A stretch of DNA of 64,000 nucleotides, taken from assembly GCF_020382885.2 (NCBI RefSeq), contig NC_058501.1:4898001-4962000 (forward strand), given 5' to 3'. This stretch comes from Scatophagus argus (taxonomy: Eukaryota > Chordata > Actinopteri > Scatophagidae). A program made the position numbers and the translations under genes. Positions 38,832 to 62,747 of the stretch are shown here, one piece after another. Position 1 is the first letter of the stretch; every line of letters begins with the position of its first letter. Below the pieces are notes generated by a model. It saw only the letters and a list, made by a program, of their open reading frames with translations. It was not told the origin of the DNA and searched no databases.

Positions 38832-41800
38832 TCAGTCCTCCTTTTTGGCTTTCTCACTCTCTGTATCCTGAGAAGCCTCAGCCGCTGACACCACTGCACG
38901 CACACACACATACACACACACACACACACGCATTAAGAGGAAATCAATAACTGACATTTTCATTCAATACAAACCACTTTTAATCCACAGAAGAGAAGTG
39001 AAGCACAAACTTTCCAACTTAGCCACATCTGGTTCTACTGAACTGGTTTACTAGTGATTTACCTGGCCTCTGAATGAACACACGCACATACACACACAAT
39101 GCTGAGTCTCCAGGGAGAAGTCTCATAAAAGTTATGCAATATAGCTTCCACACCAGACCAGTATTTTGCACATGCTGCCTGGAGGGGCATCTCTGCCCTA
39201 AAAGTACAGCATGTTCTCTGAGAGTCAAGAGTGGGGTGCTGGCTGTCATGAAAACCACGAGCCTCTGCCCCTTACACAAGGCACCTGACCACTGGAGGTA
39301 GTGCACATTGAAGAGTTCATTTGCAGAATACACAGGGGAATTGGCACTGATTTTCAATTGTTTTAGTAGTCAGTTTCCACAATAAAGTCAATAAATCTAC
39401 AGAGTGTATACTGTGGGTATCTCACAGACTTTAACCAGAGAATCACTGGCATGTTGAAAAGGTGTAAAAATCCATATATTGTAGCCGGGCTTGAAAACAG
39501 TGCTCTGTTTCTGTCTGTATGTGAGACAATGGCTTAAGCACTGGTGAGGAGAAAGTACATGGCATTTTTTGTGATTAGTTAAGTTTCCACAAAATTTCTT
39601 TTACCTTCTTTAACATCAAAACATTTTAGTGCGAATTTTATTTGATTACATAATCCTAATTAAATGCAATCCGCCACTACCTAACCTTAAAGTTAGCATT
39701 ATATCAACATTAACTAGCGTCAGCCTCAACCTAAACGCAACATGGCGCCGTCTGCTGCCTCACGTGGATGAGAATGACTTGTGATCACAGGTAAGCGTTG
39801 AATGAGGATGAGTGTTTTATGAGACTGTGGATCTTTCTGATCAATCTGAAGAGCACCTAGGTGTGCCTGTTCCACATTCTATCATCAAGTGTGTCCTGCA
39901 CTGGCCATTGGCCTGGTCGTGGATTTGGCTCAGTCTAACCTTGCCTTGGTCTTGGTCTTACCTTTGTCTCAACCCCTCAAAATGATCCACATTCTTTACT
40001 TATATTTTATTATTTTCAGGTATCAGAAAATTTGTCATTGTAATATGTATATTCAGTGATATTGATGGTCTTCTGTACATGTGAGATCTACTGTGCATCT
40101 GTCCTGGGTGAGGGATTCCTAGATCAAGAGTCTAAGGACAGATACCTTATAACCAATACACTTTATACCCAATTTCCTCCAGGGATCAATAAAGTGATAA
40201 AGTATTTCTGATTCTGATTACAGATTGAAAAGCCCGCTGAGGCACCATGATTTGTGATTTTGGGCTATATAAATTAAACTGACTCTCTCTTCATACTGAA
40301 TATTCTTTAGAATGAGCCCTGAAATGGTTTTACTTCAGATTTTTGCATTAAGACTGCAATCCAGCAGGCTTGTAGAGCATTTATGCATTGTCTTAAGTAA
40401 CTCGAATCAGCAGGGCATGATTAGTCTGTAGTCAGTTCACAATAGAGTACAATGAGTGAGAGTAGCGTGACTGGAGCTGTTGTGCTGACAACATGCTCCC
40501 ACTATAATCAACACACTCAAGACAAGCCTTCATTTCTCACTCTGAGAGTGTGTAGCTGCTTTCTGTTTCTCACACTGTGTTGTCTGTTCAGTCTTGCGGC
40601 TCAACAATATCCTGTTTATCCTGTCAGCTCCAACTAATCACACTAGTACAGACGGGAACCTATGTGAAGGACTGTTTATTAGCAGAAAGGTCGAATGGTT
40701 TACTCAGAGTTTGGTGTTGCTAACCGTGTGTGTGTGTGTGTGTGCTGGATACGCACTGAGTTACCGATGGCAGCACCTTCAAGAGGGTGATAAAAGTGTC
40801 TCTGAAGAGAACAATCATACTTTGGCCATATGTGTAGCAAGTAGATGGATTGAACATTATGACCAGTGAAGGACCATTGTTATATGGATGTAAACAAAAT
40901 CCTCTTATCTGTGTGCACAACACTCAGTTTCGTCTGCCTTTCTTTCTCTGTCTCACCTCTTTCTACTTGTTTATACGTGCTTAGTGCCTAATGCATGTTT
41001 GCATACATTCCCCCAGCCATTCCAACCAGTGGCAATGCCTAACTGTTTGGAAGGCTGACAGTTTTTGGGTGGAGGTCAATCTGTCAGAATTTGTCCATCA
41101 TGCCTTATCAAGCAGGTTAAAACATAGTATGATGCCTTAAAGTCAAAGTTAGTATGACAGGTTTTCAAACAAGTAAACCCTTGAGCCTAAACCCTGTCAT
41201 CATCTCTCCTTAACAATGGCAGCCATCGCTGGCTCTAATCCTATCGTTGTCATCCTTCAGCCATTAATACTTGTACTCTGGAGGAAATGTGGCTGTGCTG
41301 CATTCTGTCAACAGTCATGTGTAGAACACAAATTAAAATATGCTTTAAATAGCTACAGAGATACTGCTGTGGGGATCTGTTCACCTTTCTGTTAGTGCTG
41401 TAAAAAGATTATTTAAAAGAGAGGGAATTGAGTTATTTCTTTATTTTACTATGCAAAGAAAACTATGTATAATTACTGACAAGACAGGAAGAGCAGTGTA
41501 GAGGTGTCGGAGTTTCATACCTGCAGGTGCTGACAATGCTGCAGAGTCTCCTGGGGAGGACTCAACCACAGGAGCCTCTGCAGGGGCTGCACTGTCTGCC
41601 GCTGACTCTGTGGCCACAATTGCTGCTGGAACCACTGCTGGACCTGCTTCTGAAGAGGCTTCCAAAACCTCTGATGTAGGTGCTGGAGCCTCTACCTCCT
41701 GGACTGGCTCAGCAGCAGCTGATTCAGCTTCTTGAGCAGGAGCAGAGGTTTGTTCTGAGGGCATCTCTGCAGTCTCAGCAGGAGCCACAGAAAGTGCTAG

Positions 41801-44800
41801 TGCCTCCTCAACTTCAGGCTGAGGTTCAACTTGAGCGTCAACTGAGGCTGAAGATAATGGAGGCATCTCTGGAATAGTTGCTACAGCAATCTCTGTATCT
41901 ATTATAGGCTCTTTTGCCTCTACAGGTGCTGAGGATTCACCTGGGGCTGCACCCTCGATTGGGGCTGGTACTGAAGCTTCTCCAGAGGCTGCACCCTCAC
42001 TTGGTGCTGGTGCTGCAGCTTCGTCTTGTTCTGAGGATTCACATGGTGTTGCTGGGGCAGGGACTTCTGCAACATTGTCAGCTGGAGCCTCTGCCTCTAC
42101 AGGAGCAGCCACTTCAGCAGGGACCTCAGCCACTGCAGCTGTTGTCTCTTCCATAACTACTGGGGCCTCTGCTGACTCAGACACAACAGGTTCAATGGCG
42201 GGGGTGGCAACTTCAGAAGAGGCCTCGGCTGGCACAGCGATCAACTCCTCAACAACAGGAGGAGCCTCTACCTGCACAGCTACAGCAGCAGGGGTCTCCT
42301 CTTTAGCCTCAGTGAGGGCTTCGACATCAGGAGCAGCCTCAGACACTACAGTTTCTACAGGGGCAGCTTCCTCCACAAGGGGTAGTGCCTCCACCACCAC
42401 TTTAGCAGCCTCAGGTTCAGTGGCGGCTTCAGCTGAAACAGCAGCCTCTGAAGCTGGCTCTGCAGGGGTAACAGGTTCTGGTTGGGGCTCAGGAGCAGCC
42501 AGGAGGTCCTCACCAGAGCCAAGATCCTCTTGGGCCTCCATGGCTACTAACACACCCTCTGCCTCGTCATCGGCACCTGGTTGAAGATCATCTGGTAAGG
42601 CGGTCTGGACAGGCAACTGCATCTGGTCCTCAATGGTTTGTGCATCTTCTGCGATAATACCGTTTCTGACTGCTGTCAATACAGGAATCATAAAGGAAGA
42701 GCTTGATTAGGATTTACAAGCATGTGGTACTTATCAATTTTCATTAGTGCGTTGGGCTAGTAATGCACCGCCAATCTGCTAAACAGTTACTACACAACAA
42801 CACTGAGCAATGAAAGAGCTTTCAAGAAGACTCCTTATGTGACTGAGCTTGAAACTTCTTAGGGGGTCCTTGAGCTAATCTATGCATTGAATGGTTTTGT
42901 TAATAAATGACCACATTTGCTATGACAACATCAGCTTTAGAAAATGGAACCGAGACATTCAACCATACAAGACTGAACTGATATGATAGGTGAAAAAAAT
43001 AAAATTCTGACATAAACTGGTTTAAAAAGGGTAATCTGTTTTATTCTTATGTCAGGAGAATGAAGCATTACATTAACCTTCTAATCTAAAAAGCAACACA
43101 TATTGATGTGAATGTGGACAATAATTTATAGATGTAAATTAAATCCTATTGCACCAAACATATAAAACCATAAACACAGCAAAGCAGCAGCTTTACTCAA
43201 CATGGAAGGCTGGAGATAGGAAATAAGGCAATAAGGCACACTGAATGCGTGATACAGAAAACAGCCTTTAATTTCCGTAGTTGAAAATATGATTCTTTGA
43301 AGCCTGCATTTTCCTAAAGCCTTGAGGACATGCAGGTCAGTCTCAGGGGAAATAAAAAACACGTGACTTTCCTTGCCTGTGGGGAGACACCCTACTTTCA
43401 CTCTCATCCCCTGACCTCTGCTCTCATAACTGTGGATGTGAACAAGACATCTGGCCTTGGCTGAACAATAGATGAGGAACAATAGAGGGATTGGATATTT
43501 AAAACTGAAAAGTCACTAACTGCAATACACATTTCAGTTACAGGAATCTCAATGGCAGAACAGAAGCTTCTGAAGTGTCTTTTATCGAAGTTCCCCTCAG
43601 TAGTATTTCACAGCTAACTTCTTTGCAAAAACACTTTGTTCACAAATGACACAGACCAGAAGCTGAATGGGCGGATAGTTTGGACTCTGCAGCTTCCTGG
43701 TTTTACTTGTCTGTCAGGAGTGATAAAAAGAGTTGAGAGTGATGGGTGGAAGGGAATGTGAAAGCCTGGCAACTCAAATGAAAACGAGCCAGTGCAAGAA
43801 CAACCAAACTTGTTTATGTAAAATGAAATATTTATAATGAGAGTATAGAATTGTAAAAGCAGAAGTTTTTAGACAGGTGTTTTCACAAGATTTAAATCCT
43901 TACAATGTTTTTGACTTAACACAGTTTCCTTTCATAGATTTCAAACATGTGCTCTGTTAGTCTCCACTTAATCAGAAATCCACCTCATACTACAACTATA
44001 GCAGTGAATACAAAGGTCAGAACTACTGTTGAAAAGTGTGTTTGGGTCGAGACAGAGACAGTCTCCCCAGGCATGGATGACTTGTGTGTCAACATGATTT
44101 AGCAGCCAGAGATGACAGAGATCGCAGTCAAAACAGTTCCAGAGGGGAGGGAAGGGGACAGACAAGGGGCCCGGACAGGGGATGGGACCAGTGGTGCCTT
44201 GGATGGCATACAGCTGGCTTGTTAGACAAGCTGTACACAGTATGATTTAAACCTCCACCCATTCGGTCACATTTAGAGAGCCTGCCTGGGCAAAGAGTAC
44301 AATAAGTGGTTTCTTGTTGGGGTGATGTAAGAGCCTGGAAAGGAACTCCAGCTTCTCCAGGTGACCATAGCTGGCTGGCGGAAGAGACAATGCCCTGACA
44401 CAAGCATTGCACAGTGACATAGTGGAAGATGAAAATGCTGTACGTGAATACACACTAACTATCAATTTGCTTACTTTCCTTAAAAATACTATTTGCTACC
44501 ATTTAAACTATTTCTTTTTGGCTCAAGCAATCACATGCACTAAGACACACTATGTAACAAAGGCTGTAATCGTCATGCCATGTGTATGAGGGGAGATGTG
44601 GTGAGAACATACTGTACATGGAGCCGTGCCTGGCATGACATAGCCATGTGCCAGTAGGTTGGAGCCATGAATAGACAATCATGTTTTGTGTCAGGCCTTT
44701 TGGTGGGCAGCTTGAACACAGAGTCCATAAGCATATGCAAAGGTTTTGGGAAAACCTTTGCATATGAACTTTAGAACCATGAAGAAGAGACACATTATCT

Positions 44801-46265: not shown

Positions 46266-47804
46266 TTATTTGAGCACAAGTTGATTCTCGAGTGTCTCCA
46301 GCTTCTTTGACATGGCTTCAAGTAGGCATGTCAAGGAAAGAGATGCAGATACAGATACAATGAGGACAGCACCAGAATCGGTCATATACTAAAGAGAATT
46401 TCAATAACATGAGGCTTTTAAAAAAAGTCTCACTAAACAAATTAAGGTAATACAAACTGGCAAAATATCTGTCGTTAATGTAATCCTTTTGTACAATGTA
46501 TAGTCACTTACAGGTACGTAAGGTTAAGTCCATTTTTGTTTGTACTTTTCTGAAGTGTGTTTTATGCTACTTCATAATTCTACTCCACTGTATTTTAGAG
46601 GAAAATATTGTAAATTTTACTCAACTTGTTTGATAGCTTTATCTTAGTTACTTATCAGATGTAGATGCTGCAGCATTAAAGGGATGGACTTGTAAGCATG
46701 TTAATACTTTTGTACTTTTACTTGAGTACAGTTCTGAGCACATGCCATTAGCCTGTACCACAGTATTTTTGGCCATATTGTCATTTTTAAGTGAAAGATG
46801 TGACCATTTTTCCACCACTGTGTATACTGTGTATATTCTTTTCAGTGTATGACTTGAACCTCCATGTAAGGCCAGAAGAGCTATATTATTTTGGTTAAAT
46901 GTGTTTGAGTTAACACACACACTGACATTACAGGCACATTGAAAATAAAAACCCCGTGTTATCTGCTGTGCCTGACTTGCTTAGCTCCTCACAACCTGTG
47001 TCCCAATTAAGGCAACAGCCACATTTCCTCCCAAAGTACTCAGTACTCTCAGGAACTACTTCTTGAGAAACTGCATGGTTAATTTGGCCCATTGTTCCCG
47101 TCCATGAGGTAAATTAGTCGACTATTGTATGAAAAAGCAGCAGCTGTTATTTTCACTGTGTTTTTGTGAGCCACTATATTGCATCACAGCCTGAACTTTG
47201 GTATCTGTTGCATGCTTTCTTCTGTAACTCCATGTTCATGTTTCAAAGCACAATGAACCAGTAAGCTGCAGATGTTTAAAAATGGTAGCTGAAGTCAAAT
47301 GCTGCAAGCACTCCACCAGTTAGAAATGTTCAGTGCTGCAAGCCCCACCCCCAAAAGTTCCTGAGCTTTTGTACTATTCCCCCCCGAGCAGGGACATTCT
47401 GAGGGTAAAATAATGCCACTGGCACTTCACTTAAACACAAACACAGAATAGCACAGCTGACACATAAATTGCTTTTGGTCTCTTCATTGCCATTGCTCAG
47501 TGTGCCCTGGAAAAGCATTTTTAGATTCAAATACTGCAAAACTGTAATCACACAAAATCTGCACATATTATGTTCTTTCTCTTGAGTTTTTGCGTGTAGC
47601 TGTCCACTCATTTGCACTGGAGAATCGCAGAGGCACATCTGCTCAAGATTACCAAAAACAACATACATGTTAGCCTAACTGTGGAGCCAACAGTCTTTTA
47701 AAAAAGGATATTATTCTGCATGAGGTTCTTCAGCTTCTCAGTGACCTGGTTTTGAAACATTATCACGTTCTCACACTGGCACATGTTTTCATCAGAGGGT
47801 TTGT
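46266..47804 (-). other. matn2 coiled-coil exons joined by a U12-type AT-AC intron
   Basis: The exon ending at 47712 is followed by ATATCCTTTTTT, the minor-spliceosome AT-AC donor, not by GT. The intron ends with branch-site-like TTCCTTGAC (46338-46330), then ATGCCTAC, with terminal AC at 46323-46322. Joining gives [19 protein letters not shown] in frame, a heptad coiled coil for oligomerisation. Matrilin genes are known for an AT-AC intron at this place. Confidence 0.93.
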
Positions 47805-50800
47805 CTGTTGGGAAAGACAAAATGAGATGAGAAAATCTTCCTGACCTTGGATCAGTTTTTTTTCTTTCTTACTTCACCCTATCTCTTTAAAACTTTCCCT
47901 GCAGGTTTTCCTTCCTGTCTCTGCCTGTAGAGACTGTAGTACATGTGGTTGGGATACACTTGAGAGTGCAGAGCAAAAAGGACCAGTCAGTAACGCGATA
48001 TGTTTTTGCACAGTGTTCCTAACTAAAAACATTAAGAACTGCTCAAATCAGTCATCATCATAGCAGCAGCAGGTGGCAGTGATGCACCATTTATATAGAA
48101 GAAAATGTTTTCAAGAAACTGGCATGCAGGACTGAGATATAGATAAAATAGCACCGAACAGTGTCATCAGTAATATGCTGAATTTGATTACGAGTACTTT
48201 ATAACAGTTCTGGAAGTAAAGTACCTGTGCACATCCTGGACTTGAGCTTCTTTGTAATTTCTGCCATGTTCTTAAAATCTTTAGCATAATAAAGGTGCTT
48301 CTCATCGGGCTCTGAAGCTATTTCTCTCAGCTCCTGTTCAATGGCTTTGCCGACACCCAGAGCGTATATCGTGACCCCTGAAAAAAAGATACAGGAAACT
48401 CCTACTAGAAAGAACTTAGATTGATTAAAAGTTGCAGTGCATCTAAATGGTGAGGCAAGACAGTAAGTATACCAGAGTTCTTTGCTTTACTAGCCCATTC
48501 GGACACATCATCCTGTGATCTCCCATCGGTAAACACAATGCTGACACGTGGGATGTTTGGCCTGGCTCCCTCTTTAGCTGAGAAGCTGAACTCAAACATG
48601 TGACGTAAGGCTGAGCCAGTCATGGAGCCTCTCCCCATGTATTGCATTCGGGACACGGCCTGTTTGATGCCCTGGGCTGTGGTGTACTGGCCCAGGGAGA
48701 ACTCTGCACGCACTTTGGTGGAGTACTGAAGAAGGCCAACATGCGTGCCTGTCCTGGAAATGTCCAGCGAGTCCACAATGCTGTTAACAAACTGCTTGAC
48801 CAGCTCAAAGTTGGCAGGGCCCAGACTCTTAGAACCATCAATAACAAAAACCAGATCCATGACTCCATCGCCACACTCTGGCTCTGTCACATACAAGGAA
48901 ATAAAATACACGTTTTATGGATTTTCACTTAAATGCTGAGACACGGGGTCTATTTCAAAGGTAGTTGAGATCATACTTTTGCAGCTCTTTCCATCTTCAG
49001 CCAACGTGAATCCTTCAAAACACCTGCAGATGTAGGACTCGGTGGTGCTGACACACTGGTGTTCACAGCCATGGTCCACCGTCTGACACAGATCCAGACC
49101 TGTGAGTTTAATTGTAGGAAAACAAGTTTTAGTATGATGTTTCACTTGTACAATATATTGTGAAAGGCTCTGATTTGTTGGAATCATTATGATTGCAAAT
49201 TCTGACCAATAATGTTACCGCAAGCATGAGTGCTCTGTTTTCATCATCACCATTATTATTAGACTCATAAGTATCTGACATGCTGCGAGGTGGTAAACAC
49301 ACACAAAATATCCCCTTAATCCGCAGGGGGGAGGGGAAGACATAGAATTTTCAGTGACAGCTGGGATTATTGCTTACCTCACAACTGGCTCAAAATTCAT
49401 TCAAAATGATGTAACATGTAAATACCGGAAGAGGGGACAGAGAGGGTCACAACAACATGCTGATGGAAAATTAGATTCTGAATTTTGTTCATTTTGCCTC
49501 ACACAGATATCAGTTCCGTCTTTTCTATGCTGTCAAGTGTAGCATTGTAAGGCATCATTTAAATCATCAAATGAAATTAAATTAAACCATTTAAAGCCTC
49601 CACACTGAGTTACTCACAGCAGGAAAAGTAACCAGATTCACACCTCCAAATTATTTATTGCATGTCATCTGTTGTAAGGCAGCTCTTCTGTAGTATCATG
49701 TCAAATCAGCAGCTTTGAATATTTACATTGCATCTTTTGGTTGAGGTTCACTGATGAGTTTGGACTCACTCTGACATGTTTTTCCATCAGGTCGGAGTGC
49801 AAATCCATTTCTGCATTTACACACACATGAATCCTCCGTATTCACAAACTCCTGCTCACAGCCATGTTTCCCATCAGCACAATGGTCTATCCCTGCAGGA
49901 AACAGTCAGCGAGTAATTACTGAATACATGAAATAACTTTTAACTGTTTTCCAGTCTGACCCTTGGATTACAGTTTCCTCTGTTGCTACAGTGAGCATGC
50001 CTACTGTAACAATACTGAAAAACGGGGAATCTACAATAGTTACTGCCACATTCCACATGATGTAATAAGACATCTTAACGAAGGAAATGTTAAGGAGGAA
50101 AAGAGGAAAAAGCACAGGACACTTACTCTTGCAAGTTTTCCCATCAGGTCTGAGAGTGTAGCCTTTCCGGCACTTACATACACAAGCATCCTCTGTATTC
50201 ACAAACTCCTGTTCACACCCATGGGTGCCATCAGCACAGTGATCAATCCCTGCAGGAAACAGGTGAGGAGTATTGCTTAGAAAACGTTTTGCTCCTCTGG
50301 CCAAGATCTGCACAAATCTTCTCAGACAGATTATGTCAAATTTACTGGGCACATTTACGGTGGTGGAAGCATCTCATTGGCAGATACTATGCTTTTTTTT
50401 TTTTTGCTACATTTGTCTGACAACTTTAGGTGCTAGTTACTTTTGAGATTACAATTTTTTAATACCCTTCCTGTCCAGACATTTGTCATAAACTGAAGGA
50501 TTAAGTGTTCCATTGTGGTTTTTAAAATAAATAAACCATAAAAACCACTAATTATAAGCATCATTAATGCAGCAGTAATATTAATCCAAAAACATCAGAT
50601 ACATCGTAAAACACTGACAGGGAACATTTTACTGCACTGTGAGTACTTTTGATTTTCATACTTGAAGTACATCTTGTTGATAATACTAACATACTTTTAC
50701 TTAAGTAAGGTTTTTGAATGCAGGTCTTTTACTTGTAGTGGAGCATTTTCACAGCGTGCAGTAAATAAGCGTAATATCACTGCACACTTAGCATATGTTC

Positions 50801-53800
50801 CTCTCCTGCATTCTTTCTATCTTTCAGCTGTATCAGTGAGCACAGTGATTCTGACTCCAGAGGGCTAAATAACCTGAGACATGGATCTAAATGTAATAGT
50901 TTTTCCTGTACAGCCCCTTAATCTATGACAGCATCTGAAATCTTTCCAAAAGTTATCAGCATAGTTATCAGACATCATATTGTTGCTCTCTCCCACAGAC
51001 ACACTGTTTAGACAACCTTTTAGAAACCCAGTAACATAAAGGATTTGAATGGATACAGGATTAGACATGTTGTGACACCTTTAAAGGACACTCACTCTGG
51101 CATGTTTTCCCATCAGGCCTGAGTGTAAAGCCTTTTCTGCATTTACACACACAGGAGTCTTCTGTGTTCATGAACTCCTGTTCACACCCATGGGTGTCAT
51201 CAGCACAGTGGTCAATCTCTGGGTGACATAAAGAGTAGCGGACAGAGATTGAAGAGATTAAGTTTTGCTTTGAAGTATTGTTTTGATGTTACCCTACACA
51301 CAAATGACAATTCATTACCAGGGCAACTATTAAAGCATTCGACTTTAATATGCACTCAAAAGTGACTGCATGACTTTAGAACAACTGTTGATTTACCTGA
51401 ATATTACCACAAGATGAAAGCACTTACTGCTGCAGGTCTTGCGGTCCACATTGAGGACATAGCCCTTCTTACACCTGCAGAGGTAGGACTCTGGAATGCT
51501 GACACAGTCATGCTCACAGCCATGATTCCCCAGGTCACAGTAGTCTATTCCTGAGGAATAAAAGGATCTCCTATCAATGCTACAGTACTTCACCTTACCA
51601 CAAGCTACTACTTTCAGCAATGTCACTGCTTTCTTTAACATTACATGGTCTTCTACTAGCCATGTAGCTGTGATTCCTAGGATATGTATTAATCGTTATC
51701 ACTGTAGATCTGAGTGCCTTTTAAATGAACATTATCATATACAAGAGCAAACAAGAAAGAAATTCAGAACCAAGAAAGAAATGAGAAATTCACAAGAAAG
51801 ACAAAATTTTAACAAAAGAAAAAGAGAAAACCATGATTCATTCATCAAAAATGAAAATCTGCTTCCAGAAAGACTCTGGTAAAGGTGCAGATTTGTGAAC
51901 CCAAGACAGGAAAGATCAAATAGTCGTTCTTGTTTTTGTCAGTGATACTACGACACCTTGGATAGCCCTGCACTTTTCAGCAGCTGCTCGGGTGATTGCA
52001 AAAGCACACTTCCTCCAGGAAATCTCCCCCACTTTTCTTTCTGTTAACATCCACCAGAGGAGCAAAAGGCACCTTTTCCAGCAGTGGGTGGAGGGACATC
52101 ACTGGCAGGAAGAAAACTGACTCTTATTTGGATTTGGAGGTCCAGCAAAAATACAGTACACCATGTTTGAGTCACCAAACACTCTTTCCTCAAGATATAT
52201 TTCAAATTAAGAATTAATATTGTACAACAATATCCTGAAAAAATGATGGCAATGTAGTTTTGTACACTCACATCATGGACTGTGTATAAGGAAATAAAAA
52301 ATAAAAGACCTGCCGAGCTGGAGAAAAGTTGTGCAACATGTTTTTTACTTTGATGGACTATGCATTGCAATCATCTGCTCCCTGTTCTCAAAATTATTAT
52401 CTCCCAAGTAGAGGTTTAATTACAAACATCCATCCATCCATTTTCTATACCGCTTATCCGTCAGGGTCGCGGGGGAGCTGGAGCCTATCCCAGCTGACTA
52501 CGGGCGAGAGGCGGGGTACACCCTGGACTGGTCGCCAGTCAATCGCAGGGCCAACACACAAAGACAAACAACCACACACTCTCACACTCACACCTAGGGG
52601 CAATTTAGAGTAGCCAATTAACCTAATGTGCATGTTTTTGGTATTGTGGGAGGAAGCCGGAGTACCCGGAGAAAACCCACACAGGCACAGGGAGAACATG
52701 CAAACTCCACATAGAAGGGCCCAGACCGAGATTCGAACCTGGAACCTAATTACAAACAAATTTATTAAAATGCAGAATACAGTAACAAAAAAAGTAAAGT
52801 AAGTAATGGAAGAGATCACTAGTCATGGAGAGGGAGAGAGGAGCTCCTGTTAAAGGAAGAAAAATTACTGTTGCATGTCTTCAGGTCTATGTTGAGCTGA
52901 TATCCTGGACGACAGAGGCACTCGTAGCCATCAGGGATGTTGACACAGATGTGTTGACAGCCATGATCCACCTCAGCACACATATCCTCAGCTACAACAG
53001 TGACAACATGAAGAGAAATTCAACAGTGATCTACAGTGGAATTTGCAGAATTAATGAATTAAGTGTTTTGGGGCCACACAGTGGTAGCAGAAACAAGCTG
53101 ACATATTCGAGTTTTGTCCAGTTCCCAAGGGAAATGTGTTGCTCTTGAGTGACTAAATGTGGCTGTGGCTGAAAGTCGCACTGATGAGAGTGATCAGACT
53201 AAACCAAAATGGGAAAGTTGTTAACTGGACAACCAGTGCAAACAAGAAGCTGAAATACGCTAAAATGCTCAATGGGGAGGAAATCTGTAACTGATAAGAC
53301 TGTAACTGCTTATCTTGTCTTTGTTAAAAAGATGCTTGTTTTAAAAGAGCAGATCAGATGAGAGAAAATCAGTTCCTTCACCTCGACATGTCTTGCCATC
53401 AGGATTGAGGGTGAAGCCTTCCCTACACTTGCATCTGTATGAGGCAGGGCTGCTCACACAGATGTGCTGGCACTGATGGTCCACCACCTCACACATCTCT
53501 GAACCTAACATATACATGTACACATCAACAAAGATATTTAACAAATGTTTCAAACACACATGTTTGCATAAATAAGGAGGGATACTGGAAAAGAGAAGGT
53601 AGATTGGATTCATAACCTCCACACAGTTTGGACTGGAATACCGAGATGAGGGTTTCTATTTGACTAAAGTTGGCCACCAAGTGCACATGCTCAGAATGTG
53701 GTTCACTCCCTATGGTCTTCAGAGTGTTCATATCCACCCTGCCCACTCCAATAGCGAAAATCTGGATGCCAGCCTGTCTCGCCTGAGCTGCAATCTCCTC

Positions 53801-56800
53801 CACCGTGTCCTGAGGTCGCCCATCGGTCACAACCATAGCAATTCGTGGGATGTGCAGGTGTGCTGGTCGTGCTCCATGTTCCTCAGTGAAAGATGTCTCC
53901 ATGACGTACTGGATGGCAAGGCCCGTCATTGTTCCTGTGGCGAGGTGCTTCATGTTCTTCACCGCCTGCTCCACCTCAGCCTTGGTGATGTAAGTATTGA
54001 GGGAGAACTCGGGCTGGACCACACTGCCATACACTGTCAGAAATAAAGGTACACGGGGGTACAAATATTAAACCCTAAGGTACAAAACTGTTCCTTTCAG
54101 TTTGTTGTACCTTAAAGGATACAGAAATGAACCTATGTGGTACTATGTTGTACCTTTCAAAGTACAAAATTGGGGAAAGTACGTATTTGTACCATAGGGT
54201 ATTGTACCCATGTGCTCTGCCAATTGTCAAAAGACCTCTCCTCTCCAATGTTATTTGTTTGTATTTATAACAAAATTGACAAAATAAACAAAAAATAAAC
54301 AAAATTATATAGACCCACAAGTAATGCAGTAGAAGACTTGAATTTGTCTAATTTTGTATTCATCTAGTTGTATGGCGCTTTGGTCTTTTGTCTCCATGGA
54401 AACAGTAAACAGGAGGAGAAAATAATGTTTAAAATTGGACGGACAATTGAACGGACAATTATACACAAGACTCCAGAGGGTTAACTGGAGTCCTGTGTAT
54501 AATTGTCCGTTTAATTGTCCGTCCAATTTTAAACATTGTATAATTGTCCGTTTTTGAATACTTTTGATTTTACCTTTATATTTCAACTTAAAAATGTTTT
54601 ACCTTGCCTTGTTTGGTATCATTTTTTTCAGAACAATCTCTCAAGTGTGACTTTACTGTTAATTTTTCATTTTGACCTACTGTATTAACACACTGGACCT
54701 AAAATCACACAAAAATGTAAAATCCGAGTGGGAAAAAGTTTGATTTTTCACTGTAAAAATCACAAAAAATCTTAACGAACAATTTAGACAACTTAGAATG
54801 CAAATATAAATTGTAAATTTGAAATAATTATGTGCAAATTTAGCAAACAAGAAGTTATTTACAACTATTCACCCTAAAATGCAGGAAATGCGTCAGGCGT
54901 TTTATTGTACAGTAATGTACAGTACAGATATGGCACAACACAATCAGTGTCACAATAAAATACACCACAAGTTATTTGTAACTCCAAAGACCAGAAAAAT
55001 GACTAAACTACACACTAAACACACTGCACTACACACTAACTACGTTAAACTACACTCCAAACACGCCAAATGTCATAAATCATATCTCAAAAAGCGCTCT
55101 CGCCGTTCACAATCTCTCGTTCGCTGCCGTTTCTCCGACAACTTTTCCCTAGCAACAAAATGCCATGTGTGACCAATCTATATTCTGATTGGTTCCTGTG
55201 GTGTATTTTTTCACCAATAGGAAAGAGGGTGTCATGTTTCCTTACAACGAGCCGGTGTTTACAGCGTTTTCTTGCATAAAACTCGCACCAAAAGTGGCGA
55301 CAGTGTTCAGGAAAAAACATCGCGTGTATTGTTTATCATAACTCGGGTTTTACTTGACATATTAAGAAAATTTAAAAACTTGTATATAGTTTGAAGTGCT
55401 AACTTTTGACTCAAATGCGTCTTACAGCTACGTCATCTTAAATCGGTGACGTCAAAAAGACGCGCCGGCGCGTCCGTCGACTCCTGAAAGTTGACATTTC
55501 GGTTTTTTTTTCGTTATTCATTTTTCGCGGGTCTTGGCAAAGCAACGGTCATCTCGTCCTCGATTGAGTCGAGTCCCGGTCGGCCAGTGATATCATGACA
55601 ACTGTTGGCAATGGCAATTTTGAGTGCGCTCACAACTGAAGAACTTCTGCTGCAGCTTTCCAAATGTGGATTGGAGGTTACAGAGGATGAGCGGAAAAAA
55701 TTCACAGGTGAGTAAACGTTGTTAATAGCTGTCACAGCACAGTATCAGTGAGTTGTGGCTAATTCTAGCTAATCTCAGCTATCGATGATTAGTTGAAGAA
55801 TTTTCACAAGTTCCCCTCACGTCCAAGATGTTACATGGGGTCGTCTTAACATTACTTATATTGAAATGTCTGTTTAAAATTTAGCAGTGTTGGGATCGGG
55901 TCAAAGGTAAATGAAAGTAGCTCGCTGGCGATAATAGGCGCATTTTTGTAAAATGTCAGGGCTTGATAATCCTTGGTGGTTGCTTGGCAAGCTAGCTGAC
56001 TCCATGTGCATTTTGCCAGCTAGCTAATGTTAGTTAACTTGTGCTTGAGGTTGCACTAACCTGAAAAAAAAGATGTGGAAATATAGTGATATAGGCCAAC
56101 AATTGTCCATATTATGTTATTATCATGTTGTTCGCTTTGAACAAGCCAAACGCTAAGAGTTTGATAAATTAGCCTTGGTTAATATCCAGGCTAGGTCAGT
56201 TGGATGGTATTGTATTCCAAGATGGCGGCGCGGGTGCACGCAGCGGCTCGAGGCTTGAATCTTGAATCTTGATCAGTTAGCTATGCCACGGTGCTAGGTA
56301 GCCTGCTAACAGAGATAATGAACTCTGAGAATCGTGCGCCCTGATCTAATGGTAATGTTACTGTAGGGTTAGAAATGTTTAATTTCTGTGTGGTTTGTTA
56401 ACTGGTGCCATCAGTGACCCGTTGTTACTCCTCCAAATTAATTATATGGAAAGTGAAAAAATATTTCTGTCATAACACACACCGACACACCGACCTATCT
56501 GCCAATCACTACTTAAGTACTACTAATTTAGCCCTCTTTCTAAGAAAACCATATCATGAAGCCATTCTTGACCGTGCTGCTGTGTGGAAGCTTCCTGAGT
56601 TGCGCACACACAGTGAAAGGCTGTTAGGCTGTGTACCGCATGTGACCATAGCAGTTTAATGGATGACTGGGATACATTTATATTGTACAAAACAAAGGTT
56701 AAATAATGGTATATTTTTTGTTCTTTAGAATATGAAGTCGATGGGGAAACAGTCAATGATGGCCTGACAGACCATATGATTTCCCAGCTCTTTGAGGGTT

Positions 56801-58069
56801 CCTTCAAAAAGCAGGTCAAATTTATGAAAATCATCCAAGAGCTAAAGACAGACATTTGCAACAGTGTTGTGGCTCCAGCTACAGTGTCTGAGTCAAGGTG
56901 GGTTTTGAACATTCACCATCAGATTTGCTGCATTTCCTTGAAAGAGCAATAGTTTTGTTCATTTATTTCAGTTTTCTGTTGTAGGCTGTATTTCTGCTTG
57001 AGCGTGACTCAAGGCGGGCAAAGATGTAAATTGCTCTACATGTTTGAGTCGGTCCCAGCAGAAATACAGACTTAAGTTGAAAAAATCCAGGGTTTTGTTT
57101 TACATTTATTTGTTCTGTTTTCATACAGTTGTGCTCAAAGTCCACAAGTGTCACAAAGATTTCCCAGTGTCTTTGTTGTGCCAAAATTCCCCAAGAGCAT
57201 ACAGACTAAATTGGACAGTAAAGAACCATGTCATAAAACTGGATTTTATCGCACCAAAATAGTTGGTGTCCTTCAAGAAACCATGGCTCAGTACACAATG
57301 TAAGTATTTTAAGTTTCTAGTAAAAGTAGTTCCAAATTCCAACATTGTCATTTTTCTATTTTTTTTTTTTTGTTGTTGTTGCTGTGTTGACACGTTTCAC
57401 ATAAAAAAGGTGCCCTTAAAAAAAGACTCATTTGTTTCCAATGAGTGCAGCACTTTTGCTGTGTTGCAGTATGATGCAATAATTTAGTGTAACTACACAT
57501 TTCTATGATTTTTGTTGTTGTTGTTGTTGTATTTTGCGTTTTTTTTCTCAGGACTGACATTTTTTATTTTTTTTTTTAGCAAATTGCCCATTCATAAGCA
57601 TGTGGGGAAATGTGATATTGTGATGTTTTTTTGTGATAGGTATCCTTCAGGTGAAGATTATGTGAAGGTTGCCAAGGCACTTGTTACCAAATACCCTTTT
57701 TTGAAGGATATAGAAGGGAATGGATATGTAAGTATTTGAAATTGAATGCCCTCAACACGCTCTGACAATTTGTTCTGTTATTAAATTCAATAGTCCAGTG
57801 CCAAAAGTAACCCTTGCTAATGACTATTTTGAATAGCACACCTGGCACATGTCATTGAAAAGGAAGTTCAAAACTGAACGTTCACCACTCGTGGATGAAG
57901 AAGAAGTCAAACAATTCAAAGCAAAATTTGGTCATCGCAAAGGCAAGTCCAAAGAGGCACCAACCCAGACTACGTGTGAAAGAAGACGTGAAATGGTAGG
58001 TCCTTAATTGAACAGCAGAATAGCATCTGAAGCAATCTGCAGGTTGCATAGCATCTTAATATGATATCT

Positions 58070-58106
<37 letters not shown>

Positions 58107-61100
58107 TGTGTGTGTGCACGCGCACTTGCAGAGAAATGAGTCTGAAGAAGGTCCTATTGGCGAAGATGCTGTCTCAATTGATGCCCATGTAAAAGTCTTG
58201 CAAATGCAGTATGAACGGACTCAACCAGATAGAACCATTGTGGAGGAAAAAATGAGACGCACATTTCTCTGGAGAAGACGTGAGCTGCAACAAGACGGAA
58301 TGTCAGCTGTTGAGGCCATCAGAAAGTATCCCTTCCTGAAAACACCATGTGGGGTATGTCTAAAATGGTTTGGTCCTTTGTACAAATACATAAAAAACTT
58401 TTCTGTGGTTCTCTGAATAGCCAAAGAATATTCAAATGAATGTTTATTAGTATGTTGTACTAGTGAAATTTGCTCTAATTTGCGCCATTCTTTTATGTTC
58501 TTTGTTTGTAATATGTCATTTGGTTGTAGCTGTATCAAGAAATGGGACGAATCTGCAAAATCACAGATTTAAGCCAACGTTTCCGAGAATCATTCAGAAG
58601 TCTGGTACCCTCTGTGCTGAAAGCAGTCCATGGGAAGTCCTGTCTGGAGAAGGAATATTTGGAGGCCAGAGCTAAAGTAACTTCAGAGGAAGTTGACGGT
58701 ATTTAATCAAAGTGATGTATTTTGTCTAGAATTATGCACCTGTTTGTCTAGATTATTATGGTCTGAATTTGTTTTTCCCACTTTCAGGTTTTGTTATTTG
58801 TTTGCTATTCTTAATCTATTGTGTATTCACTTTTGTTTTGGAAGACCTAGAGTTCCGAGCTGCCTTGGTGCTCTTACCAACTATCTTCAAAGAGAAACTG
58901 GACAACTACATTGCACTGAATGATGTATGTTTGTGGTTCCATTTTATTTCAACTTTCAATCGTACAGAGTAATAATAATTATAACAATAAAAATTATTTG
59001 ATTCATGTGATTTCTTTACTAATTTCACTGGTGACATCTTTTGCCTGTCTTTTAGGGAGATCCAGCTACACCTTACCCAACTGTTCAGGTGGCCGGCACA
59101 TCAAACTGGAGACGAGTATTCAGCGAGCGTAGACTCCCCGTGAACATCAAGGTGGATGGAACCGAATTCTGCAGTGCGGTCGGTGTTGAAGATGGAATCC
59201 TCTCTGCATTTTGCATGTATTTTGTCTACTACCTACAGTACCCTAGCCACAACAAGAACACTCTTCTTTTTATGCAAAGACATGTCTTGAAAGTGACTGA
59301 CCCTGCTGATAAACCATTGCCAACAGCAGTAGTCAGGGCCATTAACCTGTTGGCTTGAAAATGCCACGCCCATTTTCTTGTCCAAAGTGCTCACGCAGAG
59401 TCTTCACATTAGTGAAACTGATTCATCATGTCGGTTTAGTTCATGCGCATGAGGCTGATTTTTCTATCTGCTGCGGCCTTGATGATTGTCAATGTACATT
59501 TACAAAACATGAGTCTTTTAGGAGGCACATATATAGAAAACATAAGAAATGGATTGTGACGTGTCAAGAATCATCTGAGGAGGAAGGTGAAGAAGAAATG
59601 TTAGAAGAAGATTTGTTAGAATTTGACGAACCAAGCCATACAGATATCAACACACTTACAGAAAGCTTTCAGAAGATGTTGATAAGTTATTCGTTGAAAT
59701 GGCGAGAAAAATACGTTCTTCCTCAGTTAGTTCAACAAGACATTACTGATGATGTGACTGTTATTTTAAGTAATTTTAAGGAACAGTACGACACTCTTAT
59801 CACTCAACGTTTAGCACAACGATTTGATTTATCCGACTGTCCTGACCTTGCAGAACTATTTCAGTCTTCTGATATGTTTAGTGAGGCTGGTAATGTAGTA
59901 CACTCTAAACATTTGTTTACCGAGTACTGTAAATCAAATCTGGAATTGACAGAGTCTGTGCAGTATATTCTGAGGGATTCTCTTGGGTCAAAAGTGGGGA
60001 TGTATGCATATGTCCCCATAATTGATGTACTGAAGAAATACTGTAGTCATAATGATATTTGGGAACATATACAGTTTCAAAATAGACAGATGACGAATGA
60101 GGATATTTTAACTGACTATCGAGATGGTTTATTATTTGAAGAGCACCCGTTTTTCAAAATTTATAGTGATGCCCTACGTCTACACTTCTATCAGGATGAA
60201 TTTGAGGTAGTTAATCCTCTGGGTGCTAAACGTGGTAAACACAAACTTTCTGCTGTATATTTCACCATTGGTAACATTCATGGGAGGTATCGATCCCAAG
60301 TCAAACATATACATCTTGCCCTATTGTTTAAAGATTCTTTCCGGAAAAAAGTTACTTTGGAGACGATTTTTAAACCACTGCTGAGGGACTTAACAATACT
60401 CTCTTCAGAAGGATTTACCATTTTTGTAAATGGTCAGGAGCACTTGGTGCATGCCGCCGTAGCCACTATATCAGGAGACAACTTGTCAGCACACATGGTT
60501 GGTGGTTTCCGCATGGCTTTTAATTCCGGGCGCATTTGTAGGTACTGCATGGCAACCTCATCAAGTAAAAATGATCATTTCAGTGAAGACGACTTTACTC
60601 TTAGAACTTCAGACATTCACAAATACCATCTTGAGTGTATAAAAGAAAATCCAAATAATATTGCACTGTATGGCGTTCAAAGAAATTGTCCGTTTGACTC
60701 GCTTGATTACTTTGAGGTCACAACGTGTCTTCCACCTGACATCATGCATGATGTTTTAGAGGGCGTGATTCCGTTAGTATTACATCTAGTCCTTCGCAGG
60801 GCCCATCAAGCAAATCATGTTACCATACATGAATTTAATGATGCCCTGAAACACATGTCTATAGGCCAAAATGATAGTTCTAACAGACCAGTAGCACTTT
60901 CAGAAAAGATTCTTGGTCGTTCTACAATAACTGGATCAGCGTCACAAAAATGGTGTCTATTTAGGCTATTGCCATTTATCATTGGGGACCGAATTCCTAC
61001 TGATTCCAGCTATTGGCATATATACCTTCTACTCCGTGAAATAACCGATATTGTTATGGCACCCACAGTCAGAAGAGAAGACCTTTTGGTCCTTGATCTG

Positions 61101-62747
61101 CTCGTTCAGCAGTTTTTATCAGGACTAAAAGAGGAATTTGGAAATGTTTTAACACCAAAATGTCATTACCTAATACACTATGCTAGACTAATGTCATTGT
61201 ATGGGCCACTACGGCCATTATGGTGTATGCGTTTTGAAAGTAAGCACCAGTATTTTAAGACGGTTGCTGAAAACTCTAAAAACTTCATTAACATATCCAT
61301 GACTCTAAGTCAACGACATCAGTTTAAACAATGTTTTGAATTTCAGTCAAAAAATATGTTAGGTGATTATGAAAAGGTGCCAGGCACTAGCTTAAAGATT
61401 TCATTTTCATCCTTGCCTCCTGCTCTTCAAAACACCATTCTTGACCATGTTGGACTGCAGTCTACTAATGTGTCAGAAAAAACTTTTCAACGGGTCAATG
61501 AAGCAGTATTAAATAATGTGAAGTATGCAGTAAGAGATGTGTTCATTGTGGACTTTGTCCATTCAGAATATATTCCAGTGTTTTTTCAGATTAAGTTCAT
61601 TTTGAATATTGATACACAGTGGTTGTTGTGTGGACGAATTTTATTCCCATTCTGTTTTGACAAGCATTTTCATGCTTATGAAGTGAAGTATGATGATTGG
61701 ATTTGTATAATGCCTGGGCAAGAGTCTAGTTTTCAAGCCCTTGATACATACACAGTTGAAGGAAGGTTGTTTGTTGCCATGAGGCATTTGTAATTAAAAT
61801 ACTAATGAAATTACTTGATAAATACATATGTTGAAGGAATGTTCAATAAGACATTTGAAGTTACAATACTATGGTGAAATCAGTTTTTACTGTTTTGTAT
61901 TTCAATACAATAAACACATGCTTTTTTAAAAAAAAACAAAACGTCTTTTTTAATGTTTTTATGTACCAATTATGTGTCTTTATAGGTACAAATGATGTAC
62001 CTTTAAAGGTACAAATTCACTTGTCACTGTGGTGGTACCATTGTGGTACAGGTTTGTATCATTGTTGAAGGTACAGTAGTTGTACCATCCAGAAAAGGTA
62101 CAAATTTGATCCTGAAGGTACACATCAGGCACTTAAAGGTACAAAGCATGAGGGTACAAATATGTCCCCCTTTCGCAAGGTACAGCTCTGTACCCTCTAA
62201 GGGTACTGCCACAGAGACAAGGGTTTGTACCTTTTAAGGTACTGAACTGTACCATTTTTTCCGAGAGTGTACTGGAGCAGGCCAACCCTAGTGGCATCAG
62301 AACCGATCTCCAGGAACTGGAGCAGGTTGATAATGAAGGTCTTGACCTTCTCGTAGTCGTGGGGACGGATGCTTCGAGAGCTGTCGATGACAAAGACAAA
62401 ATCCAGTGGGATGGCTTTGCAAGAGTTCTCTGTAAAGACATGAAGGTTTGTGATCAGGGAACCAAATACTGAAAACTTCCAGTTCAGACTGTGCTGAAAT
62501 CCAAACTAGATTTCAAGAGCTCTTTGTCTTTTTATCTTTCATAGAAACAGACAAAACTGCAGTTGGTAAAACATACATTTGGGTCAGTAACTGGCTCCTT
62601 ACCCATTGCTTTTGTTTGGGCAGTTGTCTCATTTCGCCCCCTGACTGCAATCGGTCTGGGACGACGTTTTTCCAGTTGAACTGCATTACAGCACAACAGG
62701 CTGAAGAGGCAGAGGGCCAGGCACCTCATTCTGACAGGAAGTGACAA
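46266..62747 (-). CDS. matn2: Matrilin-2, coding exon interrupted by a transposon
   Basis: Exons (minus): 62747/62729-62603; the vWA1 exon in two pieces, 62429-62270 and 54031-53617; EGF exons 53504-53382, 52991-52869, 51550-51428, 51218-51096, 50249-50127, 49892-49770, 49099-48977; vWA2 exons 48883-48473 and 48377-48225; linker 47804-47712; coiled coil 46321-46266. Without the insert the frame is continuous: 757 residues from the Met at 62729, six more from 62747. Matrilins are secreted, oligomeric extracellular-matrix adaptors. Seen: signal peptide [14 protein letters not shown]; basic segment; vWA1 with the MIDAS DSSRS and TDGRPQD; seven EGF modules; vWA2 with DGSKS and TDGRSQD; a cysteine pair and heptad tail ending [11 protein letters not shown]. 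Synteny and the two-vWA, multi-EGF layout argue for matn2 rather than matn1, 3 or 4. Whether protein is made depends on the insertion. Confidence 0.93.
48225..48883 (-). other. matn2 second vWA domain exons
   Basis: Two exons (48883-48473, 48377-48225). Starts [19 protein letters not shown] with the MIDAS DxSxS, continues through [13 protein letters not shown] and [11 protein letters not shown], and ends KKLKSRMC. The region between this and the coiled coil is very short compared with the unique segment of mammalian matrilin-2. Confidence 0.93.
48977..53504 (-). other. matn2 array of seven EGF-like exons
   Basis: Seven exons of exactly 123 nt, all phase 1-1, each encoding one EGF module with six cysteines: 53382-53504, 52869-52991, 51428-51550, 51096-51218, 50127-50249, 49770-49892, 48977-49099. 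Human matrilin-2 has ten. Modules 4, 5 and 6 are nearly identical ([18 protein letters not shown]) and lack the usual third cysteine position, with a new cysteine six residues later. Confidence 0.93.
52427..52745 (-). mobile_element. SINE with (CATC)n tail, minus orientation
   Basis: On the + strand it begins with (CATC)n, CATTTTCTATACCGCTTATC, GGAGCCTATCCCAGCTGACT, CAATTTAGAGTAGCCAATTA and AACATGCAAACTCCACATAG, and ends at a B-box-like GATTCGAACCTGGAACC. The promoter head is truncated. It is well preserved, and shares its body with the 37023-37262 copy. Lies in matn2 intron 3, between EGF exons. Confidence 0.85.
53617..54031 (-). CDS. matn2: matn2 vWA1 exon, 3' piece after the insertion
   Basis: Resumes at TATGGCAGTGTG ([11 protein letters not shown]) directly at the transposon edge and runs through [17 protein letters not shown], the MIDAS motif TDGRPQD and [14 protein letters not shown] to a GT donor after 53617. 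It uses the TA copy at 54030-54031. No frameshift or stop is visible in this half, so decay since insertion is slight or absent. Confidence 0.92.
54030..54031. other. Target-site duplication, left copy (TA)
   Basis: TA next to the CACTGTCAG end. The matching TA is at 62270-62271. Keeping one TA rebuilds CTC-CAG-TAT-GGC in the matn2 exon. Confidence 0.85.
54032..54053 (+). repeat. Left terminal inverted repeat
   Basis: CACTGTCAGAAATAAAGGTA then CA. It pairs with the right end at roughly 16 of 22 positions. On the minus strand it reads TACCTTTATTTCTGACAG then TG, which looks like a 3' splice site facing matn2. Confidence 0.8.
54046..54215. repeat. Left subterminal GGTAC/GTACC array
   Basis: About eight GTAC-centred motifs in both orientations within 170 bp, such as AAGGTACA and TTGTACCTT. 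Likely transposase binding sites by analogy with CACTA elements. Confidence 0.7.
54424..54537. repeat. Long hairpin inside the transposon, 53-bp arms
   Basis: Arms 54424-54476 and 54485-54537 are complementary except at two positions, with an 8-base loop. Each arm contains two direct copies of a GGACAATT-type unit (GGACGGACAATTGAACGGAC). A further partial copy (ATAATTGTCCG) follows at 54540-54550. Confidence 0.9.
55440..55610 (+). promoter_or_regulatory. Putative transposon gene promoter
   Basis: Contains a perfect CRE palindrome TGACGTCA (55447-55454) and a 16-bp GC palindrome GACGCGCCGGCGCGTC (55459-55474), about 140-160 bp before the SAM-gene ATG. GC content rises sharply relative to the rest of the element. 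Promoter role is inferred. Confidence 0.45.
55611..59358 (+). CDS. Transposon-encoded SAM-domain protein (SAMD3-like), 9 exons
   Basis: Exons: 55611-55707, 56729-56897, 57129-57299, 57640-57727, 57837-57995, 58132-58353, 58530-58698, 58845-58924, 59056-59358; 1,458 nt, 485 residues, all GT-AG with matching phases and no internal stop. Residues about 1-75 ([20 protein letters not shown] through [19 protein letters not shown]) look like a sterile alpha motif, a helical protein-protein interaction fold. Later parts ([51 protein letters not shown]) resemble proteins often named SAMD3-like in fish annotations; that comparison is from memory. The function is unknown. It may be an accessory transposition protein or a captured host gene. 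It lies immediately upstream of the transposase-like gene on the same strand. Confidence 0.85.
56217..56233 (+). promoter_or_regulatory. YY1-like motif
   Basis: CCAAGATGGCGGCGCGG in intron 1 of the SAM gene matches the AAGATGGCGGC core of YY1. It could mark a second promoter or an intronic enhancer of the element. Confidence 0.4.
58074..58117. repeat. (TG)n microsatellite
   Basis: TG run with one TTTG break, ending just before exon 6 of the SAM gene (acceptor at 58131). It merges into the region where a pyrimidine tract would be expected. Confidence 0.9.
59361..61793 (+). CDS. Zinc-finger transposase-like protein of the element
   Basis: Single open frame of 810 residues from the ATG at 59361; an in-frame TTG precedes it but ATG fits better. 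Seen: two C2H2-type fingers ([20 protein letters not shown] with a following histidine, and [20 protein letters not shown]); an acidic stretch ([20 protein letters not shown]) near residues 72-92; [20 protein letters not shown] near residue 392; and [19 protein letters not shown] near residue 458. The DxMHxxxEGV block recalls the DVMHIEKNV block of plant CACTA TNP2 transposases and could supply a catalytic Asp. The assignment is inferred; a Zisupton/KDZ or Plavaka relative is the alternative. It starts two bases after the SAM-gene stop, in another frame. AATAAA follows at 61909-61914. Confidence 0.85.
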   Translation: MPRPFSCPKCSRRVFTLVKLIHHVGLVHAHEADFSICCGLDDCQCTFTKHESFRRHIYRKHKKWIVTCQESSEEEGEEEMLEEDLLEFDEPSHTDINTLTESFQKMLISYSLKWREKYVLPQLVQQDITDDVTVILSNFKEQYDTLITQRLAQRFDLSDCPDLAELFQSSDMFSEAGNVVHSKHLFTEYCKSNLELTESVQYILRDSLGSKVGMYAYVPIIDVLKKYCSHNDIWEHIQFQNRQMTNEDILTDYRDGLLFEEHPFFKIYSDALRLHFYQDEFEVVNPLGAKRGKHKLSAVYFTIGNIHGRYRSQVKHIHLALLFKDSFRKKVTLETIFKPLLRDLTILSSEGFTIFVNGQEHLVHAAVATISGDNLSAHMVGGFRMAFNSGRICRYCMATSSSKNDHFSEDDFTLRTSDIHKYHLECIKENPNNIALYGVQRNCPFDSLDYFEVTTCLPPDIMHDVLEGVIPLVLHLVLRRAHQANHVTIHEFNDALKHMSIGQNDSSNRPVALSEKILGRSTITGSASQKWCLFRLLPFIIGDRIPTDSSYWHIYLLLREITDIVMAPTVRREDLLVLDLLVQQFLSGLKEEFGNVLTPKCHYLIHYARLMSLYGPLRPLWCMRFESKHQYFKTVAENSKNFINISMTLSQRHQFKQCFEFQSKNMLGDYEKVPGTSLKISFSSLPPALQNTILDHVGLQSTNVSEKTFQRVNEAVLNNVKYAVRDVFIVDFVHSEYIPVFFQIKFILNIDTQWLLCGRILFPFCFDKHFHAYEVKYDDWICIMPGQESSFQALDTYTVEGRLFVAMRHL
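61909..61914 (+). terminator. Transposon gene polyadenylation signal
   Basis: AATAAA about 115 bases after the transposase-like stop and before the right subterminal array. Confidence 0.6.
61985..62255. repeat. Right subterminal GGTAC/GTACC array
   Basis: About eighteen GTAC-centred motifs (GGTACAAA, TGTACCTT, GGGTAC and similar) in both orientations. Denser than at the left end, an asymmetry also seen in known CACTA elements. Confidence 0.75.
62248..62269 (-). repeat. Right terminal inverted repeat
   Basis: Read on the minus strand: CACTCTCGGAAAAAATGGTA then CA, matching the left end imperfectly. The AATG then GTACAG within it could act as a weak 5' splice site for matn2 transcripts. Confidence 0.8.
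62270..62429 (-). CDS. matn2: matn2 vWA1 exon, 5' piece before the insertion
   Basis: Acceptor AG at 62431-62430; encodes [20 protein letters not shown], whose DxSxS is the MIDAS start, and reads on to TRVGLLQ. It is then broken at the TA (62270-62271) by the transposon. The clean reading frame up to the break argues for a recent insertion. Confidence 0.92.
62603..62747 (-). CDS. matn2: matn2 first coding exon (signal peptide)
   Basis: Two in-frame Met codons, 62747 and 62729. The second leads directly into [20 protein letters not shown], a good signal peptide, and is preferred. A basic stretch ([13 protein letters not shown]) follows, as in mammalian matrilin-2. The exon ends in GCAATG-G before GTAAGG. 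Confidence 0.85.

Follow-up and report, generated by a model that had tools for sequence, protein, structure and literature searches.

The matn2 locus and the interrupted vWA1 exon

The stretch of DNA analysed here (the window, 64,000 nucleotides of contig NC_058501.1 of Scatophagus argus, positions 4,898,001 to 4,962,000) contains matn2, the gene for matrilin-2, on the minus strand. The exon encoding its first vWA domain (vWA1) is split by an 8,238-bp CACTA/EnSpm-like DNA transposon, which carries two genes of its own in antisense orientation to matn2 (Table 1). The name of the interrupted gene was taken from the best named protein matches, and its architecture is that of matrilin-2, with vWA1, EGF repeats, vWA2 and a coiled coil containing an AT-AC intron.

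Inspection of the junctions placed the element to the base between two copies of the dinucleotide TA, with the termini CACTGTCAGAAA and CACTCTCGGAAA. When the element and one TA are removed and the minus-strand flanks are joined, a single open frame with the residues ...GLLQYGSVV... is obtained. The rejoined exon is 573 nt long, is free of stops and has the phases 1-1, and its 190-aa product matched Pfam VWA at 2.9e-53. The sequence-only reading had described a TA-flanked transposon splitting the exon cleanly, two stop-free halves, and restoration of LQYG with the phase kept over 573 nt once positions 54032-62269 and one TA are dropped, all of which is in line with these results. It is thus confirmed that matn2 has a complete CACTA/EnSpm-like element inserted in its vWA1 exon. 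Its boundaries are beyond chance, since five further genomic copies with the exact left terminus were found, and the four of them with both ends are flanked by 2-bp duplications.

A protein search with the rejoined vWA1 sequence was passed by 193 proteins. Among the 120 listed, the best match was an unnamed record (96%), while the named top matches were matrilin-2 proteins of Larimichthys, Takifugu and other fish. An alignment with ten of these proteins (six named ones, all fish matrilin-2, and four unnamed ones) is gap-free at the junction, and the junction residues Q52, Y53 and G54 are invariant. With vWA1 as the query, 84 matches were obtained in the S. argus assembly of 570.7 Mb in 48 contigs; only the two halves described here (97 and 98%) are matn2-like, the next best match reaching 52%. 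An assembly duplicate is improbable, since this search of the 48 contigs revealed no second or uninterrupted matn2 vWA1 and no contig with an empty site. The insertion is known from assembled sequence alone, and the element might have been misjoined into the exon during assembly. This is extremely unlikely, given that target duplication and termini are precise to the base, that the same ends and 2-bp duplications occur at other loci, and that an empty matn2 copy was not found. A prior report of the matn2 insertion was not found in the open-licence literature, covered by titles and the beginnings of abstracts, with subscription papers outside the scope.

Table 1. Positions of the interrupted matn2 gene and of the inserted element in the window.
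Feature	Position	Strand	Basis
CACTA/EnSpm-like DNA transposon, 8,238 bp	54032..62269	+ (genes antisense to matn2)	termini, TA duplication, same-ended genomic copies
Target site duplication TA, left copy	54030..54031	.	junction inspection
Target site duplication TA, right copy	62270..62271	.	junction inspection
matn2 vWA1 exon, 5' half	62272..62429	-	
matn2 vWA1 exon, 3' half (one TA included)	53617..54031	-	
First in-frame stop upon reading matn2 into the element	62197..62199	-	
Left terminus: terminal inverted repeat (TIR) CACTGTCAGAAATAAAGGTAC and 8 GGTAC/GTACC motifs in 200 bp	54032..54231	+	
Right terminus: TIR (reverse complement CACTCTCGGAAAAAATGGTAC) and 19 GGTAC/GTACC motifs in 320 bp	61950..62269	+	
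Element gene 1: 485 aa, nine predicted exons, N-terminal SAM fold	55611..59358	+	
Gene 1, exons 1-5	55611-55707, 56729-56897, 57129-57299, 57640-57727, 57837-57995	+	
Gene 1, exons 6-9	58132-58353, 58530-58698, 58845-58924, 59056-59358	+	
Element gene 2: intact single-exon transposase, 810 aa	59361..61790	+	D279, D373, CRYC 393-396, H602/H606, E626
1,005-bp segment (gene 1 end, transposase start), found once in the genome	59166..60170	+	genome search, copy comparison
matn2 signal-peptide exon, ends in phase 1	62603..62729	-	
matn2 EGF1-7 exons (123 nt each) and vWA2 (48883-48473, 48377-48225), open	48225..53504	-	
matn2 coiled-coil exons with AT-AC intron between, up to stop codon	46266..47804	-	

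Genes and classification of the element

With terminal repeats, an intact predicted transposase and an intact predicted second gene, the element is complete. The GGTAC/GTACC motifs are concentrated at its ends, only five being found in the 7,718 bp between the two termini. A search with the transposase (gene 2) returned 78 proteins, the six best of which are 807-832 aa long with 51-55% identity (807-819 aa and 52-55% for the top five). In an alignment with 18 of these 78 homologues, D279, D373, C393/C396 and H602/H606 are invariant and E626 is at least 90% conserved. Their order is the one given for the CMCT clade in the excerpted text of PMC12730594, and the putative catalytic residues among them were assigned through this pattern.

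Gene 1 is predicted to contain eight GT-AG introns, with the frame kept throughout its 485 codons. Its stop codon and the ATG of the transposase gene are two bases apart within one exon (59356-59363). Residues 141-485 are identical to the S. argus protein P0199 (345/345 residues), and gene 1 contains, without a single difference, the "sterile alpha motif domain-containing protein 3-like" isoforms X1 (345 aa) and X2 (306 aa) of S. argus in UniRef/nr. Up to E = 0.1, no Pfam domain was matched. The model of a gene 1 homologue (mean pLDDT 78) has an N-terminal sterile alpha motif (SAM) fold, for which the best PDB chains were found at TM ~0.8 over ~70 residues with a probability of 1.00, the Foldseek E-values being at least 0.48. 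The fish relatives of gene 1 carry the name "SAMD3-like", which suggests that some of the fish genes so named are transposon genes. Both genes of the element probably share one transcription unit, since the Fundulus gene LOC110368027 is listed with the transposase as isoform X1 and the gene 1 protein as isoform X2.

In a tree of 24 hand-picked gene 1 homologues (out of 86) and the window sequence, the latter is sister to the sea catfish Neoarius graeffei (100/99), inside an otherwise ostariophysan group (100/98) and away from the percomorph sequences. This placement may serve as a lead for horizontal transfer.

The assignment as CACTA/EnSpm-like (CMC/CMCT) is based on a DDE transposase whose second D and last E enclose C(2)C and H(3-4)H, on 5'-CA(C)...(G)TG-3' TIRs with subterminal GGTAC clusters, and on a target duplication in the range of 2-5 bp (TA in the window and at three of the other copies, TG at a fourth, the right end being absent from the fifth). 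EnSpm in the narrow sense requires a 3-bp target duplication; as that of the element is 2 bp long, it was filed as EnSpm-like. The C(2)C and H(3-4)H arrangement is shared with ESTA, Plavaka and EnSpm, likened here by their description in the excerpt of PMC12730594, according to which the CMCT clade has mostly CA..TG termini and 2- to 5-bp duplications and ESTA uses TA. The transposase matched Pfam Plavaka with 19.5 bits, under the cut-off of 26.3, and its homologue P0121 reached 24.1 with Pfam Transposase_21, under 28.6. SmTRC1 and other animal CACTA elements, again likened by description, have a Tnp2-type transposase and CA-type ends in common with the element; for SmTRC1, the part of PMC1636069 drawn on here gives 2-bp direct repeats at the ends of 7 of 14 copies and relatives including a Danio rerio sequence. 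The element differs from this group in its second, nine-exon SAM-fold gene and in its TA (once TG) duplications.

Copies elsewhere in the genome

The left-terminus pattern was found at 42 genomic places with up to three mismatches (27 for the reversed control), six of them exact including the window copy. Ten of the 42 places were inspected, namely the six exact and four inexact ones, the remaining 32 being three-mismatch places. The four inexact places (three with two mismatches, one with three) contained nothing of the element beyond GT repeats and were discarded. The five other exact copies were fetched whole. Four keep both ends and are flanked by TA, TA, TA and TG, respectively; in the fifth, TA is present at the left and the right end is missing. 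No additional copy was detected within the window (blastn, 1e-3).

The segment 59166-60170 has a single match in the 570.7 Mb, at matn2, and is missing from all five other copies, as is 55549-55643, in each case with identical edges. A third gap, 54496-54536, has the same edges in four copies and is slightly larger in the fifth. These common edges point to descent of the five deletion copies from one deleted ancestor. The third gap is overlapped by an inverted repeat inside the element (54407-54554; 70-nt arms, 86% complementary). Divergence among the deletion copies is 0.44-0.99%, compared to 1.25-1.65% between them and the window copy. Only one complete copy was found in the assembly, the one in matn2, a count based on the 1,005-bp DNA search and on the reading of the five copies, with diverged relatives outside it. 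Neither this count nor the second gene of the element was part of the sequence-only reading.

One complete and at least five deleted elements look like a two-component system. In maize, Spm/dSpm comprises autonomous and deleted elements, and exon insertions are sometimes spliced out. One complete element, internally deleted copies and an exon insertion are common to both cases, but the element described here belongs to an animal lineage and is known from its sequence alone. While this kind of insertion is known already, the combination of the sole complete copy found, a coding exon and an intact two-gene element is notable. With apparently trans-mobilised deletion copies beside an intact CACTA-like element, the activity of this group in vertebrates becomes directly testable.

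Compared to the majority of the deleted set, the window copy has fewer differences in coding (10/1588) than in noncoding positions (47/2853; p = 0.003), as expected if the complete lineage stayed functional.

Age of the insertion

If the element genes and the exon halves had decayed freely since the insertion, the chance of finding them all unbroken would have fallen to 5% at a divergence of 0.44-0.64%. Converted with assumed indel shares and an assumed range of 2e-9 to 1e-8 substitutions per site per year, this divergence suggests an insertion age of ~0.4-3.2 million years (Myr). The term "recent" depends mainly on the element's own genes, since the exon halves taken alone permit 3.7-28 Myr. 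In a 39-row tree of vWA1 (40 proteins tried, two dropped for short coverage), the branch of the window sequence is 0.033 compared to a median end branch of 0.063, and the domain therefore shows no sign of relaxed change. The proposal of a recent insertion is hence supported by open exon halves, two open element genes, a vWA1 branch that is not accelerated and close deletion copies. An old, fixed insertion in an already dispensable matn2 is very unlikely, as the remaining matn2 exons are open up to the stop, both element genes are intact, the vWA1 branch is not accelerated and a redundant matn2 copy was not found in the assembly.

Consequences for matn2

Translation running from matn2 into the element would meet its first stop after 24 additional codons. 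If the vWA1 exon were skipped, the frame would be kept, since the signal exon and the EGF1 exon would meet in phase 1. The allele is likely either to be null or to lose the vWA1 exon by in-frame skipping, the latter not having been named in the sequence-only reading, and a natural knockout, one of the effects considered beforehand, would be the likeliest effect in view of the read-through stop.

Tolerance by splicing, also suggested beforehand, held up only in part: a candidate in-frame splice pair is present, but it is no better than chance. Four of the 104 donor/acceptor pairs scored (with an untrained matrix) are in frame and stop-free. The best one consists of the donor AAAATG/GTACAG, 19 nt beyond the upstream exon edge, and the TIR-made acceptor TTTATTTCTGACAG/TG, 2 nt short of the element's far end. 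Its donor is weak, with a score of 2.09 (2.34 for the native vWA1 donor). The acceptor scores 8.46 (2.5-13.0 for ten native matn2 acceptors), belongs to the top 1.7% of AGs on the minus strand of the window, and was equalled near the end in 70 of 5000 shuffles. The opposite orientation of the element was rejected for splice-out (5.77 versus 10.55). Removal of the element as a new intron would leave seven in-frame codons (YTLGKNV), and vWA1 might still work. These residues would be placed on the tip of the betaB-betaC hairpin; in a homologue's model, the insertion site is where strand 58-65 ends and strand 69-73 has yet to begin. However, an equal or better pair arose in 105 of 1000 shuffles of the ends and in 191 of 2000 ends drawn at random from the genome, so that the pair is no evidence of adaptation, and the matn2-sense strand of the element contains 15 polyadenylation hexamers. 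Such an intron is unlikely. It is decidedly unlikely that the sole complete copy is live and recent and is tolerated as a newborn 8.2-kb intron via a TIR-supplied 3' splice site with seven added residues. Introners are DNA elements creating introns in coding sequence, many of them with terminal repeats and target duplications (excerpt of PMC9860276); in comparison, the present case is one single 8.2-kb element read from genomic DNA.

Very probably, a complete two-gene CACTA/EnSpm-like transposon has recently entered the vWA1 coding exon of matn2, with probable loss of full-length matrilin-2. The two-gene element would have jumped into this exon of a percomorph matn2 with duplication of TA. The transposase would act by cut-and-paste on the element's own termini, where it would probably bind to the clustered GGTAC motifs. 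A complete element of this type may have mobilised the deletion copies in trans. The disrupted allele would yield no full-length matrilin-2, because read-through stops after 24 codons and the exon, enlarged to ~8.8 kb, is likely skipped, which would give matrilin-2 without vWA1. The element may have retained its mobility.

Several observations weigh against this interpretation. The evidence is drawn from the assembly, with allele status and transcripts outside it, an intact frame alone is no proof of transposition, and a splice route keeping the domain exists on paper. Differing from the window copy by 1.25-1.65%, the deletion copies are not derived from the matn2 insertion itself. Of the six coding differences between gene 1 and the deletion copies, five alter the amino acid, and residue 351 is K in the window but E in 11 of 11 homologues and all five copies. 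In the transposase (227 of 810 codons comparable), nine of ten differences are nonsynonymous, most of them at one deletion edge. These differences therefore do not demonstrate selection at the protein level. Those at transposase codons 629-633 look like an alignment effect of the deletion edge.

The insertion represents a natural disruption of matn2 in a farmed fish. It also offers a clear-cut opportunity to read from RNA what becomes of a large exonic insertion, be it a null allele, exon skipping or intron birth.

Remainder of matn2 and neighbouring genes

All other exons of matn2 (signal, seven EGF, two-piece vWA2 and coiled coil) are open up to the stop in our own gene model. An AT-AC intron is known in matrilins. 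That of the window (U12-like, 46322-47711) separates the coiled-coil exons, starts with ATATCCTTT and contains TTCCTTGAC near its end. In Tetraodon, the neighbours of MATN2 are LAPTM4B and KCNS2, and the matrilin table has a dash under zebrafish matrilin-2 (both from the excerpt of PMC1464127). Exons of POP1 and of a NIPA-family gene are located farther down the window. Both neighbours presumably agree with the usual MATN2 neighbourhood. A repetitive, E/A/P-rich frame of 421 aa on the minus strand (41441-42706) gave no match in a Pfam search; judged by gene position, we assume that it is possibly ERICH5.
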